The notes beneath the pieces are model-generated. The model had not been told where the DNA came from, made no database searches, and saw only the letters and a list, made by a program, of their open reading frames with translations. From an uncultured Myxococcales bacterium (GTDB lineage: Bacteria > Myxococcota_A > UBA9042 > DTJE01), in NCBI GenBank assembly GCA_903936705.1, contig CAIZWN010000068.1, positions 62,001 to 126,000 on the forward strand: a stretch of 64,000 nucleotides of DNA, written 5' to 3'. The translations under genes were made by a program, and so were the position numbers. This document shows, one piece after another, positions 32,923 to 39,892 of the stretch (positions within the stretch are counted from its first letter, which is position 1; each line of letters starts with the position of its first letter).

Positions 32923-33900
32923 ATGGGTATGACGGTTGGACAATCGCGGGCTGGTGCCTGGGGGCTGGCCGGGTTGCTTGGTCTTATTGCGTGCCTGGCG
33001 CTGGCGGCGTGCGGTGGGGGGGCAGCGACGGTGGTGGCGCCCCCGGTCGTTGAATCCCGTGCGGCGGCGGTTGTCGTGGATGCCGCGCTGCCGGTTGTGA
33101 CCCGTTTGCCACAGGAAGGCTGGGTCGAGGTGACTGCCGAGGTCGTTGCGTCCGAGGACGAGGCGCCAGCCGATGCCAGTCGCCGGGCGCGGGTCGTGGC
33201 GCATCGGGCGGCGGTGGACGAGGTTGCGGGCACTTCCGTTACTGCCGGTACCTTGCGGTTCCTTCACGAGACCGACAATGCATCGTCCGAACTGGCCCAG
33301 ATGCTGGCCGTCACGAGGTCCGAGGCGTTTGTCGTGGACCAGGTTCCCGGCCCGGACCGGGTTCTGCCATTGTCGTCGGGGCGGGGCTATCGGATGCAGG
33401 TCAGCCTGAAGGCCAGGGTGGTCGATCGCCGTCAGAATGCGGACCCTGGATTCACGGTATCCGTGGATCTGGGCCGCCGGCGTTTTCGCGATGGCGAGGA
33501 CGTCACCATGTCGATCACCAGTACTCGCGCCGCGCGACTGTACGTTGTCGATGTGACCGACGATGGGGCTGTCGTGCTGCTGCCGAACGCGCACCAGCCC
33601 GACACCAGGGTTCCTGCCGGTGGCACGCTTCGGTTTCCCGGCACGGAACTGTCGGCACGCGGCGTCGGGTTGAAGGCACAGGTTCCCAAGGGACAGTCCC
33701 GTTCGGTCGAAACGCTGGTGGTCGTGGCGGTCAAGGGTGACGCGCAACTGCCGTCGCTGCAACCGACCGAGGGCATCTTTCGTGTGGAAGAGGCCCGCGG
33801 CGCCGTTCGACTGCTGGGTGACATCACGGCGCCCCTGTTCAAGCTGCCGGTTTCGGAATGGACGGTCATGCAGGTCCCCTACGAGGTATGGTCCCGATGA
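32923..33900 (+). CDS. lipoprotein with FlgT/LPP20-like and DUF4384-like domains
   Basis: 325 residues. A lipoprotein signal has lipobox LAAC at residue 30. The N-terminal half (EVTAEVVASEDEAPADASR, AHRAAVDEVAG) resembles the FlgT-N/LPP20 envelope domain. The C-terminal half (TVSVDLGRRRFRDGEDVTMS, ARLYVVDVTDDGAVVLLPN, PAGGTLRFPG) is DUF4384-like, a domain often found next to or fused with caspase-like proteases. The stop overlaps the next start (ATGA), so it is probably co-translated with the diversified caspase/FGE protein and may present or control it in the envelope. The start choice among several Met codons is uncertain. Confidence 0.7.
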   Translation: MGMTVGQSRAGAWGLAGLLGLIACLALAACGGGAATVVAPPVVESRAAAVVVDAALPVVTRLPQEGWVEVTAEVVASEDEAPADASRRARVVAHRAAVDEVAGTSVTAGTLRFLHETDNASSELAQMLAVTRSEAFVVDQVPGPDRVLPLSSGRGYRMQVSLKARVVDRRQNADPGFTVSVDLGRRRFRDGEDVTMSITSTRAARLYVVDVTDDGAVVLLPNAHQPDTRVPAGGTLRFPGTELSARGVGLKAQVPKGQSRSVETLVVVAVKGDAQLPSLQPTEGIFRVEEARGAVRLLGDITAPLFKLPVSEWTVMQVPYEVWSR

Positions 33901-35969
33901 TGCGTCAGGCAATCCAGGTCACGGTCCTGTCGCTGTCGTTGTTGATGCCGTTTGCCGCGATAGCCCAGACGGCGTCCTGGCCCGAGGTAGGGTCGGCGCC
34001 GATCGTTGGCGGCGGCGAGGGCGATGCCGCTGTGGTCGTGGGCATCGAGAACTATGCCTTCGTGCCGCGCGTTGCAGGTGCCAGGTCGAATGCCGAAGCA
34101 TGGCACGACTGGCTGACACGGGCGCGCAAGGTGCCTGTTTCCCGAGTTGCGCTGCTGCGCGATTCGGACGCTTCGGTTGAAAACATCCGGGACGCGGTCG
34201 TCCGTGCGGCTGGCGAGGCCTCGCCGCAGGGGACGTTGTGGTTCGTGTTCGTCGGTCACGGCGCCCCTCGCGAGGACGGGAAGGACGGGCTGCTGCTGGC
34301 GGTTGACGTGCAGCAGACGGCGCGCAGTCTGGCTTCGCGGGGGCTGGCGCGCGCGGACCTGTTGAAGCTGCTGTCCGGGACCCGCGCCGGCAGCATTCGG
34401 GTGGTGTTGGACGCCTGTTTTTCCGGCAAGTCAGGAAGCGGCGAGGCGATTGTCGCGGGTCTGCAGCCCCTGGTGGTTACGGCGGAAGCGTCGGCCGACC
34501 AGCGCTTTGCGATCCTGACGGCCGCCAGGTCGAACCAGTACGCTGGGGCGTTGCCTGGGACCTCGCGGCCGGCCTTCAGTTATCTGGTGCTGGGTGGCCT
34601 GCGCGGCTGGGCAGACGATGACGGCGATGGCAACCTGACGGCCGGGGAACTTCAGCGCTATGCCGAATCGGTCATGCGTGCGGTGGTGCGCGATCGCGAC
34701 CAGACGCCGACACTGCTGGGTGACATCTCGGCCCAGGTGGCCCGTTCCGGTCGCGAACGCGGCCCTGACCTTGCCGCTCTTGCGCGCCGTCCTGGGGACT
34801 TCGAAATTTCGGTGCTGCCTGCTCTTCCGACGGTATCGCGCGTGGCTGAATTCGATGCACGGGCGGGCAGCCTGGACCTGGGTACCGTGGACGTCGATGC
34901 GATGGAACAGTATGACCGCACCTTGAACCTGGACCGGTCCAACGCGACCGCTGCTGACAAGATTGCCTCGTGGCGCGAACTGGCCCGCAAGTCGGCACAG
35001 TTTCGCGATCTGGCGAACCGACGCGCAGGCGAATGGGAACGACATGTTGCCGAACAGAAGGCGGCTGACGAGGTTCAGCGTGTCCGCCGGCTGGAGCGCG
35101 ACAAGGACTGGAACCGCCTTTCCAGGCTTCTGCCTCTGGGTGTCGTAAAGGTCGAGGACAAGCGCCGCTGGGCTGCCGCGTTCGTTGCGGCCTACGGGAA
35201 CAAGATGTCCGACAATCCATACACTCCCACGCTGGCCGCCTGGCTGCCTCCTGGCGCAGTGGAGGAACTGGTTCAATGGGTCCGGATCCAGGGGGGTACG
35301 TTCCAGATGGGGTCGAATGATGGCTCAGGCGATGAAAAGCCTGTGCACCAGGTCACGGTGCCGACGTTCGAGATATCCAGGAACGAAATCACGGTCAAGC
35401 AGTATGCGATGTGCGTCGATGCGAAAGCATGCACTGTTCCAAACACGGGTGGCACTTGCAACTGGGGCGCGTCGGGTCGCGAGGACCATCCGGTGAATTG
35501 CGTTGACTGGGACCAGGCGCGGACATACTCGAAATGGGTCGGTGGCCGTCTTCCGACCGAGTCCGAATGGGAATACGCGGCTCGCAGCGGAGGTCGGAAC
35601 CAGAAGTATCCCTGGGGCGACAAGGACGCGACCTGCAATCTGGCGGTAATGAGTGACGGTGGCCCGGGCTGCGGTCGGAATGGCACTTGGCCGGTCTGTT
35701 CGAAGGTGTCTGGCAACACGTCGCAGGGACTGTGCGATATGGCCGGAAACGTTTGGGAGTGGGTCCAGGACTGGTACCACGATTCGTACAGCGGGGCTCC
35801 GACAGATGGTAGTGCTTGGGAGTCGCCTACGGGCTCGCTTCGGGTGATTCGCGGCGGGTCGTGGAACAGCGACGCCGGCCTCCTCCGTTCCGCCCTTCGG
35901 CGCGGGGGTTCCCCCGGCTTCCGCGCCGGCCACCTCGGCTTCCGGGTCCTGAGGCTCGTCACGCGCTGA
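33897..35969 (+). CDS. DGR target: exported caspase-like protease fused to an FGE-sulfatase/C-type-lectin domain
   Basis: 690 residues. A signal peptide ends near AIAQ. A caspase (peptidase C14) domain at ~40-280 has the His121/Cys174 dyad in VFVGHGAP and VVLDACFSG. A helical linker (~290-455) precedes an FGE/SUMF1 domain (QGGTFQMGSNDG, GGRLPTESEWEYAARSG, LCDMAGNVWEWVQDW). Its C-terminus, residues ~645-686, is the variable repeat. The catalytic Cys pair of true FGE, expected after GGSW, is absent, so this is a lectin-like binding scaffold. Start ATG 33897 overlaps the upstream stop. Likely role: the hypervariable ligand-binding end controls or targets the protease in the envelope. Confidence 0.88.
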   Translation: MMRQAIQVTVLSLSLLMPFAAIAQTASWPEVGSAPIVGGGEGDAAVVVGIENYAFVPRVAGARSNAEAWHDWLTRARKVPVSRVALLRDSDASVENIRDAVVRAAGEASPQGTLWFVFVGHGAPREDGKDGLLLAVDVQQTARSLASRGLARADLLKLLSGTRAGSIRVVLDACFSGKSGSGEAIVAGLQPLVVTAEASADQRFAILTAARSNQYAGALPGTSRPAFSYLVLGGLRGWADDDGDGNLTAGELQRYAESVMRAVVRDRDQTPTLLGDISAQVARSGRERGPDLAALARRPGDFEISVLPALPTVSRVAEFDARAGSLDLGTVDVDAMEQYDRTLNLDRSNATAADKIASWRELARKSAQFRDLANRRAGEWERHVAEQKAADEVQRVRRLERDKDWNRLSRLLPLGVVKVEDKRRWAAAFVAAYGNKMSDNPYTPTLAAWLPPGAVEELVQWVRIQGGTFQMGSNDGSGDEKPVHQVTVPTFEISRNEITVKQYAMCVDAKACTVPNTGGTCNWGASGREDHPVNCVDWDQARTYSKWVGGRLPTESEWEYAARSGGRNQKYPWGDKDATCNLAVMSDGGPGCGRNGTWPVCSKVSGNTSQGLCDMAGNVWEWVQDWYHDSYSGAPTDGSAWESPTGSLRVIRGGSWNSDAGLLRSALRRGGSPGFRAGHLGFRVLRLVTR
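35828..35953 (+). repeat. DGR variable repeat (VR)
   Basis: 126 bases aligned without gaps to TR at an offset of +2390. Twenty positions differ; 19 are adenines in TR and none of the other 98 aligned non-adenine positions differs. The exception is C35949 versus T38339, inside the final 22-base block (35932-35953) that otherwise matches and acts as the expected initiation-of-homology (IMH) region. Twelve residues change, including Asn to Leu, Ile, Ser, Arg, Gly, Phe, Ala and His. Confidence 0.95.
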
Positions 35970-36013
35970 AACCCTTGGTGCTTAACACTCAACCCTTAGC
36001 ACTTTTGGGGCTT

Positions 36014-36092
36014 GCGCGGCCGACCTTGCAGACGGGTCCCCCGCTCGCGCAGCGGAGCGGGGAACAGGACCGGGCTGCACGGTCGGCCGCGC
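36014..36092. other. large hairpin/cruciform downstream of VR
   Basis: GCGCGGCCGACC (36014-36025) pairs perfectly with GGTCGGCCGCGC (36081-36092). The stem extends six more pairs with one mismatch (36026-36031 with 36075-36080). An inner 7-bp stem (CCCCGCT 36039-36045, AGCGGGG 36056-36062) sits in the loop. No T-run follows, so it is not a standard terminator. DGRs often carry a hairpin 3' of VR that promotes cDNA integration; this one starts 60 bases after the IMH. Confidence 0.6.
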
Positions 36093-36112
36093 TTCCTTGG
36101 GGCTGGAGATAT

Positions 36113-36141
36113 TTGTTCAGGAGACCATTCTGCCATAAAAA
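36113..36141 (+). promoter_or_regulatory. possible promoter for HRDC-avd-RT-TR
   Basis: TTGTTC (36113-36118) and TAAAAA (36136-36141) are 17 bases apart, just after the hairpin and about 95 bases before the HRDC start. The region is clearly AT-richer than its surroundings. A weak match overall. Confidence 0.35.
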
Positions 36142-36236
36142 TCCGGTTTGACTGGCGGTTTGAAGCCCATTCCCCTGTCTGCCATGTCGCACCCTGCGTG
36201 TAGGTTGCGTCCAACACCTTGGAACGCGGAGGTTGC

Positions 36237-36869
36237 GTGAAACTGAAGGTTTTGACGCTGAAGCTGAACGTCGATAACGGTACCTTCGATACCGATCAAC
36301 TGGACCAGTTTCAGTCGGACGGCCGGGAGGTAATCGAAGTATCGGAACACTACTTCCAGCACGATCACATCCCAAGCTTGGCTTTGGTGGTTCGCTACCG
36401 GGATATCAACCCGGTTACGCCAGGGGACCAGAATGCACTGCCACGCAAGGAATGGCGCAACGACCTTGATGCCAAAGCCAGGCAGCTCTACGACATGCTG
36501 CGTGACTGGCGCAGCCGCAGGTCGCACAAGGAGGGCATGCCGTCATTCTTGATTCTGAACAATCGCCAGCTTGCCGCCATTTCGGCGGCCCAGCCTGCCT
36601 CGCTGACCGCACTTCGAGGCGTTGAAGGCATTGGGGAATCTCGATCTATTCGCTGGGGCCAGGAAATTCTGGGTGTTGTTGCGGCAGCGTTGGGACGTTC
36701 GGTTGAACAGGCAACACCGTCGCCAGCTACCGACACGGGTGCAACCGCCTCATCCAAATCAGTCCACGAGTCGGAGATGCCTGAAGTTTCAGAGCCTGTT
36801 TATGTGGCGCAGTCTGTCCCGGCAGTGCAGCCGACGCTTTTTTCCGCCGAGGGTGAGAATGTCAGCTGA
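36237..36869 (+). CDS. DGR accessory protein with HRDC domain
   Basis: 210 residues. The N-terminal part (VKLKVLTLKLNVDNGTFDTD, then EHYFQHDHIPSLALVVRYR) matches the small conserved N-terminal domain found in DGR-associated proteins. Residues ~100-150 (PSFLILNNRQLAAISAAQP, LRGVEGIGESRSIRWGQEIL) form an HRDC domain, a nucleic-acid-binding helical module of RecQ and RNase D. The tail is low-complexity. GTG 36237 follows GGAGG by 4 bases and gives the usual N-terminus; a TTG 18 bases upstream is less likely. It overlaps avd by 11 bases. A role in handling TR RNA or cDNA is inferred. Confidence 0.8.
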   Translation: MKLKVLTLKLNVDNGTFDTDQLDQFQSDGREVIEVSEHYFQHDHIPSLALVVRYRDINPVTPGDQNALPRKEWRNDLDAKARQLYDMLRDWRSRRSHKEGMPSFLILNNRQLAAISAAQPASLTALRGVEGIGESRSIRWGQEILGVVAAALGRSVEQATPSPATDTGATASSKSVHESEMPEVSEPVYVAQSVPAVQPTLFSAEGENVS

Positions 36870-37203
36870 CGAACTGCCCCTGTTCACGTTATGGGAGGCT
36901 ACACTTGGCGACCTGTTGGACCGTACGGCCCGCTTTCCGAAGGCCGTCAGATTTACGTTCGCGCAGCGCATCGACACACTGGCGCTCGACGTACTGGAGC
37001 GGATAGTCGAGGCCAGATACTCACGTCAGAAGGTCGTTCCGTTGAAGGCCGCAGGCCTGTCAGTCGAGAAGGTGAGGATCCTCTGTCGAATAGCCCATAA
37101 TCGCGGGTTTCTGGATCACAAGTCGTTCGAGCATCTGGCCCGCAGGCTGGACGAGGCCGGGCGTATGGTAGGCGGTTGGCTGCGGTCCAGGGAGGAATCG
37201 TGA
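36859..37203 (+). CDS. avd: DGR accessory variability determinant (Avd)
   Basis: 114 residues, predicted mostly helical (LFTLWEATLGDLLDRTARFP, VRFTFAQRIDTLALDVLERI, LRIL-type helix KVRILCRIAHN, then FEHLARRLDEAGRMVGGWL). This is the four-helix-bundle pattern of Avd and 23S rRNA-intervening-sequence proteins, which assemble as pentamers with a basic surface that binds the RT and TR RNA. It starts inside the HRDC gene and its TGA overlaps the RT start (GTGA), so the three proteins are probably made together. Confidence 0.88.
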   Translation: MSADELPLFTLWEATLGDLLDRTARFPKAVRFTFAQRIDTLALDVLERIVEARYSRQKVVPLKAAGLSVEKVRILCRIAHNRGFLDHKSFEHLARRLDEAGRMVGGWLRSREES

Positions 37204-38237
37204 AGCGCGCCGGCAATCTGTTTGATTCCGTGGCCAATTTCCCGGCTCTGATGGCTGCGGGACGCAAGGCGCTGCGCGGCAAGAGGCCCACGCCTGAATC
37301 TATGGCGTTTCAATACTCTATGGAGACTGAATGCCTGGCGCTGGAACGTGAGTTGCGTGATGCGACCTATGTTCCCCGGCCCTACCGGACCTTCACCGTG
37401 ATGGAACCGAAGCCCAGGACCATTTCCGCCGCCGCGATGCGGGATCGCGTCGTCCACCATGCGCTGTGCGCTGCTTTAGAGCCGCAGTTCGAACGGTGCG
37501 CCGTGTACCACTCGTATGCATGCAGGCCAGGCAAGGGCTCCCATGCTGCAGTGCGGCAGGTTCAATTTCTTGCCAGGCGCAGCGCGTATTTTCTCAAGTT
37601 GGACGTCAGCAAGTTTTTCGAGACCATCGATCACGATGTTCTGAAAACGGCAATACGGCGCCTGGTGAAAGACCCGCTGGCGCTGTGGCTGGTGGACCTG
37701 TTCATCGACCATGGTGCCCCGGGTTCACCGCAGGGCAAGGGTCTGCCGATAGGAAACCTGACCAGCCAATACTTTGCGAATCATTATCTATCCAGGTTGG
37801 ACCATCTGATCATCGAGGACGTTGGAACTGCCGGATACGTGCGATACATGGATGACATGATATTGCTGGATCCATCCAAGGCACATCTGCGCAAGGCCGA
37901 TGCCGTGGTTTCGGCATTCGCCTCTGATGTGCTGTGCGTCCGGATCAAGTCCGAGGCAACGGTCCTTGCGCCGGTCAGCGAGGGAATCCCGTTCCTGGGC
38001 TTGCGCATATTTCCTTCCGTGGTGCGCTTCGGCGGGCCGGCAAAGCGAAGGTTCATTCGTGGGGTTCGCAATCTGGATCGCTGGATGGCCGAGGGTACAT
38101 GCGACGGCGAGACGTACACAAGATCAATGGCCAGTCGAATGGGGATGGCGATGCACCTGGACACTGCCGGCTTGCGTCGCTCGTTGTTCGGCTGGCCCAA
38201 GGGAGGTGCGGGGATGATACGGGCTCGAATCGGGTGA
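37200..38237 (+). CDS. DGR reverse transcriptase
   Basis: 345 residues, the usual DGR RT length, with no extra domain. Catalytic YMDD is at residues 216-219 in VRYMDDMILL; the first Asp is in FLKLDVSKFFETIDH. The DGR-hallmark motif 4 QGKGLPIGNLTSQYFAN contains IGNLTSQ in place of the GxxxSP of other retroelement RTs, a change linked to low fidelity at adenines. GTG 37200 has GGAGG 4 bases upstream and overlaps the avd stop. The last seven codons lie within TR. Confidence 0.95.
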   Translation: MKRAGNLFDSVANFPALMAAGRKALRGKRPTPESMAFQYSMETECLALERELRDATYVPRPYRTFTVMEPKPRTISAAAMRDRVVHHALCAALEPQFERCAVYHSYACRPGKGSHAAVRQVQFLARRSAYFLKLDVSKFFETIDHDVLKTAIRRLVKDPLALWLVDLFIDHGAPGSPQGKGLPIGNLTSQYFANHYLSRLDHLIIEDVGTAGYVRYMDDMILLDPSKAHLRKADAVVSAFASDVLCVRIKSEATVLAPVSEGIPFLGLRIFPSVVRFGGPAKRRFIRGVRNLDRWMAEGTCDGETYTRSMASRMGMAMHLDTAGLRRSLFGWPKGGAGMIRARIG

Positions 38238-38343
38238 ATCGCGGCGGGTCGTGGAACAACGACGCCGGCAACCTCCGTTCCGCCAATCGGAACAGGAATT
38301 CCCCCGGCAACCGCAACGACAACCTCGGCTTCCGGGTCTTGAG
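38218..38343 (+). ncRNA. DGR template repeat (TR)
   Basis: 126 bases, the invariant template for VR, with 27 adenines of which 19 are changed in VR. Read in the VR frame it encodes mainly Asn (AAC/AAT) at the variable positions (RGGSWNNDAGNLRSANRNR), the codon choice that gives most diversity without stop codons. The first 20 bases overlap the end of the RT gene including its TGA. TR RNA is presumably the 3' part of the RT transcript or a processed piece of it. Confidence 0.93.
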
Positions 38344-38424
38344 CTCATCCAATCGGCCCGAGTTCGGCGCCCAAGGACGCCGGGCCAGTGCCCGAGGTGA
38401 CGACCAATCGTCCCCGCCCCTGCG

Positions 38425-38443
38425 CCGCCCGCAAGACGGGCGG
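38425..38443 (+). terminator. short hairpin after TR
   Basis: CCGCCCG and CGGGCGG form a perfect 7-bp stem with a 5-base loop, about 80 bases past TR. No T-run follows, so termination would need Rho, or the hairpin may cap the TR transcript. The remaining 38344-38632 gap shows nothing else. Confidence 0.3.
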
Positions 38444-38632
38444 ACGAAGATCCTTGCGCAGCGTGCCGGCTGGTAGGTGCGCGACCGGAACCCCACTGCG
38501 GGACCAGTCGGCCGCGCCCCGAACGTCGGCGCGCCGCGCCAATTCATCCTGGCATTCGCGTCGTTGTTCTTTGCGTCCGGGAAGCTGGCGACACTGACGC
38601 GTGCCGCTTGAAGAATCGTCAGAAAACCGGCG

Positions 38633-39892
38633 TCAAAGGCCCAATCCCAGCCGTGCGTAGTAGATGGCTACTACCGCGAGGGTCAGGGCGAAGAAGACTT
38701 CTACCCGTTCCATCCAGGCGCCGCTGCGGGGGCGGCGTGATACCAGGGCAGTGGATACTCCCAGGGCAAAGAACAGGACTCCCATTCCCAGGCCGAAGGC
38801 CAGCATCAACAGCAGGCCCAGGGCTATGTCGCCTGTCCCGCTGACCAGGGCCAGGATGCCGACGACGACGGGACCGGCGCACGGCGCTGCCAGCAGGCCG
38901 GTCGTGCCGCCTACAAGGGCGATGCCCAGCAGGCCCCCGCGACGCCGGCCCATGCGGCTTTTTAGGCTTTCGGGCAGATCCAGACGGAAGAAGCCCAGAT
39001 ATGAGGCCGCCATCGAGGCAAACAGGGCGGCCATGCCAAGGGTTACCACTGGAAGCTGAAGCCACGAGCCGAAGCCCTTGCCCAGCAGTGCCGACGCGAC
39101 CCCCAGGACCGCGTACGTCGTCACCATGCCTGCGACGAAAACCCCTGCCCTGGCCACCCTGACCCCAAAGGACAGGGCTGGCTGTCCGGCATGCGTGCCA
39201 GCGCCAAGGACGCCCAGGGTGATCGGTATCATCGGGTAGACGCATGGAGTCAAACTGACGCCGACACCGGCGGCGAAAACCAGCAGCAAGGCAAGGAACA
39301 AGCCCTTTTCGCGAATCCATGTCTCGACCGGGCTGGCGGATTTTTCGGAATATGTTCGTGCATTTTCGATGCGGCGGACGAAGGCGGAAGGCTTTTCGAA
39401 ATCGGTCAGGACGACGCCGGGATTCTGCCGTCCATCCGGCAGGAAAAAGCCGACCCAGGGCAGCGCCGACAGTTCGATTCCCAGATTGGCCAATCGCCGC
39501 TGAGCCGGGTCGAAATCGGTCATGTCGATGCGGATCAGGACCCAGTCCTTCAACGAGTTCATGACCCTGGGATCCGCGAACGTCTCGTGTTCCAGTTCCT
39601 TGCAGGCAGCGCACCACTCGGCGCCGCAATCCAGCAGGGCCATCCGCCCCTGGGCCTTGGCATCGGCAAGGGCCGATTCGACGTCACTGCGCCACGCCAG
39701 CGGGGACGTGTCCGTGTCCAGGGACGGCAGATCCACCAGTCCGATCAGCAGGGCCAGACCCATCGCGACCATCAGGACGCGCACGGCCTTCCACAACCTG
39801 AGGGGGGTGTTCAGCGATGACAGGTCTGCCTTGAACGCCCCGAGGAGCGCTCCGGCAAGGACCAGGATTGTGCCTGTCGCGAGGTCCAGCAT
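38633..39892 (-). CDS. DsbD-like thiol-disulfide transporter with permuted domain order
   Basis: 419 residues. One hydrophobic helix or pair at the N-terminus is followed by a thioredoxin-like domain (ALLDCGAEWCAACKELEHET, CxxC at about residue 90). The core DsbD membrane domain comes last, with LTPCVYPMIPITLG and LLAAPCAGPVVVGIL, the paired-Cys helices. In classical DsbD the thioredoxin-like gamma domain is C-terminal, so the order is reversed here. The expected role is moving reducing power from cytoplasmic thioredoxin to envelope proteins such as cytochrome maturation factors. The start is uncertain: a TTG at 39931 overlapping the comF stop is possible. Confidence 0.75.
   Translation of the reverse strand: MLDLATGTILVLAGALLGAFKADLSSLNTPLRLWKAVRVLMVAMGLALLIGLVDLPSLDTDTSPLAWRSDVESALADAKAQGRMALLDCGAEWCAACKELEHETFADPRVMNSLKDWVLIRIDMTDFDPAQRRLANLGIELSALPWVGFFLPDGRQNPGVVLTDFEKPSAFVRRIENARTYSEKSASPVETWIREKGLFLALLLVFAAGVGVSLTPCVYPMIPITLGVLGAGTHAGQPALSFGVRVARAGVFVAGMVTTYAVLGVASALLGKGFGSWLQLPVVTLGMAALFASMAASYLGFFRLDLPESLKSRMGRRRGGLLGIALVGGTTGLLAAPCAGPVVVGILALVSGTGDIALGLLLMLAFGLGMGVLFFALGVSTALVSRRPRSGAWMERVEVFFALTLAVVAIYYARLGLGL

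Follow-up and report, generated by a model that had tools for sequence, protein, structure and literature searches.

The question raised by a 64,000-nucleotide stretch of the genome of an uncultured Myxococcales bacterium (GenBank assembly GCA_903936705.1, contig CAIZWN010000068.1, positions 62,001 to 126,000; hereafter the window) is whether a reverse transcriptase (RT) cassette within it has rewritten the end of a nearby gene, and how such a cassette would find its target. We conclude that the locus is very probably a complete cellular diversity-generating retroelement (DGR). A template repeat (TR) and the spacer behind it would be transcribed, an RT acting with the protein Avd would misread adenines, and the resulting cDNA would rewrite, with the aid of a hairpin, the variable repeat (VR) of an exported caspase-FGE protein, while a second gene on contig C22 would be served in trans.

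The TR and VR align without gaps over 126 bp and differ at 20 positions, 19 of which are adenines in the TR. Differences thus affect 19 of 27 adenines versus 1 of 99 other positions (Fisher p=2.6e-15). The replacements are distributed over the three other bases (7 A>G, 6 A>C and 6 A>T), 12 codons change their residue, and the sole non-adenine difference, T38339 to C35949, is synonymous. Within the window the TR core matches the TR and VR themselves and no third place. These counts reproduce in full those of the initial annotation, which had been made by a model from the letters of the DNA and had reported a gapless pair with 20 differences, 19 of 27 adenines and 1 of about 99 other positions replaced, and 12 residues changed. 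Its statement that the element had acted many times on its target goes too far, since a single heavily mutagenic homing event could yield the pattern at one VR. Nevertheless, the same TR has two independent products, the window VR and the VR on C22 described below, and their sequences establish at least one event for each.

The genome encodes about 30 FGE-like domains sharing the same RGGSW...GFR frame, and TR and VR might therefore be alike merely as copies of a conserved FGE C-terminus. This explanation is hardly credible. The other FGE genes of the genome agree with the TR at 69% of its non-adenine positions at most, versus 99% and 96% for the two VRs, a result that refutes ordinary paralogy; moreover, the TR lies outside any FGE open reading frame (ORF), and the concentration of changes at adenines has the probability given above. 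Judged from these alignments, neither chance nor ordinary paralogy can be the cause of the adenine-specific divergence.

The genes of the cassette (Table 1) are those expected by the initial annotation, which had described an intact DGR with an RT bearing YMDD and IGNLTSQ motifs, Avd and an HRDC accessory protein; Pfam, NCBIfam and motif searches found each component present and intact. IGNLTSQ begins at residue 184 of the RT and YMDD at residue 216. The window RT is 55-61% identical to RTs at other DGR loci, and its nearest relatives are RTs beside TR/VR pairs. Among NCBIfam models of group II intron, retron and DRT reverse transcriptases, the best, TIGR04416, scored 116.8, below its cut-off of 300, and the retron and Drt models scored far under theirs. 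NCBIfam names the window Avd 'diversity-generating retroelement protein Avd'. The features by which a DGR is recognised from sequence are thus all present: RT motifs, adenine-specific TR/VR divergence, Avd, a VR located 3′-terminally in a gene whose product has a C-type lectin (CLec) fold, and a structured spacer RNA 3′ of the TR. The order target-HRDC-Avd-RT-TR, on a single strand, is common to three further cassettes of the same genome (contigs C5, C2 and C12) and to close relatives. A DUF4384 gene directly upstream is a possible operon partner of the target.

Table 1. Features of the DGR locus (window positions; IMH, initiation of mutagenic homing)
Feature	Position	Strand	Remarks
DUF4384 putative lipoprotein, directly upstream of target	32923-33900	+	Pfam DUF4384 9.3e-10
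DGR target gene, 690 aa	33897-35969 (ORF opens 33858)	+	Signal peptide, caspase-like domain, C-terminal FGE-type CLec with VR
Variable repeat (VR)	35828-35953	+	Adenine-free 3′ end, about 35933-35953, is an IMH-like segment
GC-rich hairpin/cruciform element	36014-36092	+	60 nt downstream of VR; apical GCGCAGC 36047-36053
HRDC-domain accessory protein, GTG start	36237-36869	+	Pfam HRDC 1.2e-12
Avd accessory protein	36859-37203	+	Pfam bAvd 3.5e-16; NCBIfam DivGenRetAVD 2.3e-23, above cut-off
DGR reverse transcriptase, GTG start	37200-38237	+	Pfam RVT_1 1.9e-18; ORF overlaps avd
Template repeat (TR)	38218-38343	+	Shares last 20 nt of RT ORF, stop codon included
Structured RNA 3′ of TR (Sp-like template-RNA spacer)	38344-38494	+	Covariance model R1 match 38323-38494, 124.5 bits

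The 150 nt that follow the TR carry a conserved structure. An unfitted alignment of nine DGRs has double changes at 17 of the 27 predicted pairs, and a covariance model built from these nine also finds the RNA in C12, C2, relatives and phage DGRs outside the training set. At loci where the TR could be placed, 17 matches begin 17-20 nt before the TR 3′ end (the C12 value being read from TR coordinates) and one, at L114, begins 31 nt before it. Among 29 matches, whose alignment is fitted to the model, 87.4% of cells pair (64.0 when shuffled, SD, standard deviation, 1.2) and 24 of 27 pairs show double changes. An Rfam scan of the window gave no family matches. In phage DGRs the RNA element lies between TR and RT, as does the spacer of Bordetella phage BPP-1 (PMC12875486). 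The model locates TR 3′ ends independently of any VR and could be used to find TRs with remote targets, which are missed by contig-based surveys (PMC8144416).

The host genome is a draft of 4.85 Mb in 84 contigs, resembling a metagenome-assembled genome, and it holds four complete DGRs (C68, which contains the window, C5, C12 and C2), each with its own RT, HRDC, Avd and TR. A search of the genome with the window TR, for which the initial annotation had predicted further VRs, found one on C22 with 17 adenine and 3 non-adenine changes. It lies in a gene for a 705-aa caspase-FGE paralogue with no cassette adjoining. The two VRs are 95% identical at positions where the TR has another base than adenine and 33% identical where it has adenine, whereas the remaining target DNA is 68-91% identical, and 68-82% identical in the FGE part next to the VR. 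This contrast is as predicted if both VRs have been homogenised through rewriting by one template, although part of their identity at non-adenine positions may stem from selection on the conserved FGE frame. The caspase-FGE paralogues also differ along their length: between window positions 33897-35827 and the target at locus L044, identity is 87-91% in the caspase region and 68-71% in the middle, a mosaic that suggests gene conversion or exchange.

Remote partners are not confined to the window TR: the C5 and C2 TRs, too, have adenine-specific counterparts on contigs other than their own (C58, C79 and another site on C68). Remote VRs belonging to the C2, C5 and C12 TRs are located at L048:6872-6997 (C68 near 254.9 kb), L052:16964-17088 (C79), L060:4705-4829 (C58) and L050:643-743 (C21), the last being the weakest with a non-adenine identity of 85%; those on C58 and C79 are without a hairpin. 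Their genes have other N-termini, with Cys-rich repeats, and one resembles a protein beside the C2 cassette. Of the four FGE domains in a lipoprotein-like ORF of about 1,940-1,972 aa on contig C28 (L055:2283-8090), two are similar to VRs of the C5 TR and the other two to those of the C2 TR. We considered this ORF as a target served by both DGRs, but its non-adenine identity is only 75-90% and it is more likely decayed or old; either these are old targets, or two DGRs formerly served this one protein. The genome also contains a fifth RT-like ORF, which is distant in sequence (G000:C46:13854-14441, 29% identity).

Several observations weigh against an active element with a target in trans. The TR/VR evidence is the sequence of one genome and gives no direct sign of present activity, and C22 is assigned to this genome by binning only, in a draft of 84 contigs, although the 87-91% identity of its caspase region to the window paralogue argues for the same organism. 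Of two same-genus genomes, G002 has no orthologous cassette and G001 a partial RT only, which leaves no allelic VR for comparison. No sigma-70-like promoter was seen at 35900-38700; myxobacterial promoters may depart from that consensus. It is thus conceivable that this DGR was once active and is now silent, intact in sequence but unexpressed or not homing, and the lack of a consensus promoter and the same-genus genomes without the cassette would fit such a history. We regard this as decidedly improbable, because all ORFs are open, the RT motifs are intact, the RNA spacer matches the model at 124.5 bits and the VR agrees with the TR at 98 of 99 non-adenine positions, which implies little drift since the last homing event.

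If a functional DGR is accepted, the recognition of its target must be considered. Both VRs of the window TR are followed by a long GC-rich hairpin of 79 bp with the apex GCGCAGC. Folded as DNA, this segment has z=-4.7, and 0 of 200 shuffles were as stable. Comparison of the window copy with that on C22 shows differences in 7 of the 30 pairs: five double compensatory changes, one one-sided change and one gap. The hairpin occurs nowhere else in the genome. On this comparative evidence, adenine-specific rewriting of two genes by one TR, and compensatory evolution of both the hairpin and the RNA, are shown. The element does not conform to the site known after VRs of phage DGRs, a hairpin of 7-10 bp with a GRNA tetraloop located 4-34 bp past the VR (PMC3240598). 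The same authors (Guo et al., PMC3240598) mention unpublished hairpins at chromosomal DGRs; we found no description of the GCGNAGC type in open-access papers.

The GCGNAGC heptamer was spotted by eye and then counted, so that the first set, in which it follows 35 of 71 VRs versus 11 of 219 other gene ends at the same loci, is no independent test. It was then checked on other gene ends, shuffles, a second genome set and phage loci. Within 150 nt after the VR, it occurs at 44 of 98 VRs of cellular relatives (a set overlapping the first), versus 10.0 expected and a maximum of 18 in 200 dinucleotide shuffles. In the second set, made up largely of relatives of the host, the count was 9 of 18. Among phage DGRs run through the same pipeline, a GRNA tetraloop hairpin follows 33 of 69 VRs and GCGNAGC only 5 of 69, near background; conversely, a GRNA stem of at least 6 bp was found at 0 of 100 cellular VRs. 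A finder of perfect stems in the 130 nt after the VR gave no separation of VR ends from controls, because the cellular hairpins contain internal loops. A different motif, GGGACNA (GAGGGACGA), was observed at 29 of 98 cellular VR ends versus about 1 expected; it is carried by some Bacteroidota VRs instead of or besides GCGNAGC, for example at L079, L089 and L142.

A hairpin directly past a stop codon might simply end transcription in the ordinary way, or be a structural repeat, and take no part in homing; several Bacteroidota examples (L079, L089 and L115) do look like terminators. For the window element we consider this unlikely, since it has no T-run, was not flagged as a terminator and is not repeated elsewhere in the genome. 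Furthermore, GCGNAGC is far rarer at other gene ends than at VR ends (11 of 219 versus 44 of 98), and phage DGRs have a proven GRNA hairpin in the same place (PMC3240598). The distribution of accessory genes parallels that of the hairpins: an HRDC ORF is present at 70 of 75 cellular relatives and at 1 of 68 phage loci, and that lone viral locus, taken to be L244 from its position in the tree and its motif, falls within a cellular RT clade with GCGNAGC. On an RT tree (FastTree), four changes suffice for the two hairpin types. One tentative reading, which we consider somewhat less probable than its negation, is that target recognition follows two types along the RT lineage. Phage elements would use a GRNA hairpin near the VR and no HRDC protein, and cellular elements a larger hairpin with a GCGNAGC mini-hairpin together with HRDC, which would read the hairpin and enable a single cassette to reach paralogous targets at a distance, among them that on C22. 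The association amounts to essentially one phylogenetic contrast, and hence common descent alone may account for the link between HRDC and hairpin type.

The proposed course of events draws largely on the BPP-1 prototype. The TR and its structured 3′ spacer would be transcribed together, and RT with Avd would copy the TR RNA in an RNA-primed, error-prone synthesis of cDNA, misreading template adenines; the pattern of changes is observed, and the enzymology is extrapolated from BPP-1. The mutated cDNA would then replace the VR at the C-terminus of the exported caspase-FGE protein, a step whose product is seen in the window. As in BPP-1, integration at the VR would be helped by a hairpin, and the site is probably recognised through the adenine-free IMH segment and the large GCGNAGC-tipped hairpin past the stop codon, as their conservation and compensatory changes suggest. 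Co-occurrence raises the possibility that HRDC aids by reading the cellular hairpin. The two VR sequences indicate that the same TR serves the C22 paralogue in trans.

The target protein begins with a signal peptide (MMRQAIQVTVLSLSLLMPFAAIAQTA; judged by eye) and ends in an FGE-sulfatase domain (Pfam, 3.8e-58). A Pfam search of this protein alone missed the caspase domain, whose detection needed homologues and a family profile: 14 of 21 target homologues match Peptidase_C14 (Pfam), and the profile of the target family matches metacaspases and MALT1. The PADLOC caspase model matches the target at 1.1e-14, Foldseek comparison of its AlphaFold model finds MALT1 (2.8e-10) and metacaspases, and the GHG and DACFSG motifs of the His-Cys dyad are conserved. 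By these sequence and model comparisons the N-terminal half is a caspase-like domain, with the caspase fold and a His-Cys dyad. In an initial AlphaFold model (690 aa) the caspase part was good and the VR region poor; the latter was mended in a second model built with FGE paralogues (pLDDT 86.5). The modelled FGE domain has matches in formylglycine-generating enzymes and in 2y3c, the variable protein of the Treponema denticola DGR, which is also matched by sequence. Homologues of the caspase-FGE protein with 47-52% identity were observed in same-family genomes G009 (L196) and G004 (L197), with no RT, HRDC or Avd within the stretch read; in G004 a DUF4384 gene (L197:3594-4286) adjoins. The caspase-FGE family may thus exist apart from the DGR.

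The diversified protein would be an exported binder, whose variable C-type lectin face would meet changing ligands beyond the cytoplasm and gate or aim the caspase-like domain. Alternatively, the target could sense antigens within the cytoplasm as part of a suicide defence based on caspases, a role that has been put forward for multicellular bacteria. Proteins in which DGR-diversified CLec/FGE domains are joined to caspase-like or CHAT domains are on record from cyanobacteria (PMC7517822) and from presumed conflict systems (PMC10907252, which refers to earlier work), and the PADLOC match of the target is in keeping with this role. A defence function is possible but not favoured, and on balance rather unlikely, because the target carries a signal peptide, as do the lipoprotein-like C2, C5 and C28 targets. 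In addition, the scanned parts of the locus yielded no STAND/NACHT, EAD, MoxR or VMAP partner. Among the proteins scanned, a subset of the window genes, the NTPase, adapter and effector of a STAND/EAD/MoxR ternary conflict system were not seen beside the target.

A separate observation concerns C12-type DGRs (L046 on contig C12, with the TR at 394-520 and the VR from 2608, both on the minus strand; L230; and L232), in which G>T changes occur besides A>N. At these loci 16 of 37 sites with G before A are altered, all to T and none to A or C, versus about 2-3 changes at about 250 other non-adenine sites. When the cellular DGRs are taken together, with L230 and L232 among them, no other non-adenine change is as frequent as G>T, and 17 of 21 cases stand before A. 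Drift of the TR from A to G was rejected as the cause, since it predicts G>A differences and there are none at those sites. From the base changes, this looks like relaxed template specificity in the C12-type RT subclade, with dATP inserted opposite a G that adjoins an A. Codon selection, for example in favour of TAC or TTC, is a possible alternative.

In itself, the element represents a known kind. DGRs with HRDC accessories, FGE/C-type lectin targets, caspase-fused variable proteins and remote targets have all been published (PMC4891356, PMC10053308, PMC7517822, PMC10907252), and the locus adds one well-documented cellular DGR with a target in trans. What may be new is the division of target hairpins into two types, together with its association with HRDC. 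This comparative part offers testable handles on the role of the HRDC accessory and on how a cellular DGR distinguishes its target from its own template, both of which end in the same IMH-like sequence.

Like the DGR of BPP-1 (avd-TR-brt, with mtd as target), the window element combines RT, Avd and a TR/VR pair with adenine-specific mutagenesis, an adenine-free 3′ end of the VR, a hairpin after the VR and a structured RNA 3′ of the TR. Unlike BPP-1, in which the order is TR-spacer-RT, the window has RT-TR-spacer, as well as an HRDC accessory and a caspase-FGE target. Its 79-bp hairpin begins at +61 and has a GCGNAGC apex, as opposed to 7-10 bp, a GRNA loop and a distance of 4-34 bp in BPP-1 (PMC3240598). 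The T. denticola DGR (TvpA) is similar in having an HRDC accessory in the cassette, an FGE-type CLec variable protein and several remote targets (PMC4891356), and the TvpA structure 2y3c matches the CLec domain of the window target. However, the accessory gene of T. denticola lies between TR and RT, the window target has a caspase domain fused to its variable domain, and the Treponema loci in our tree sample have neither hairpin motif. The DGRs of Thiohalocapsa PB-PSB1 and cyanobacteria are similar in the makeup of genome and target, with several DGRs per genome, caspase-like or CHAT domains joined to a C-terminal CLec, and remote variable proteins (PMC10907252, PMC7517822), but the caspase-FGE proteins described here differ from them in carrying signal peptides and in having no STAND or MoxR module among the scanned neighbours.

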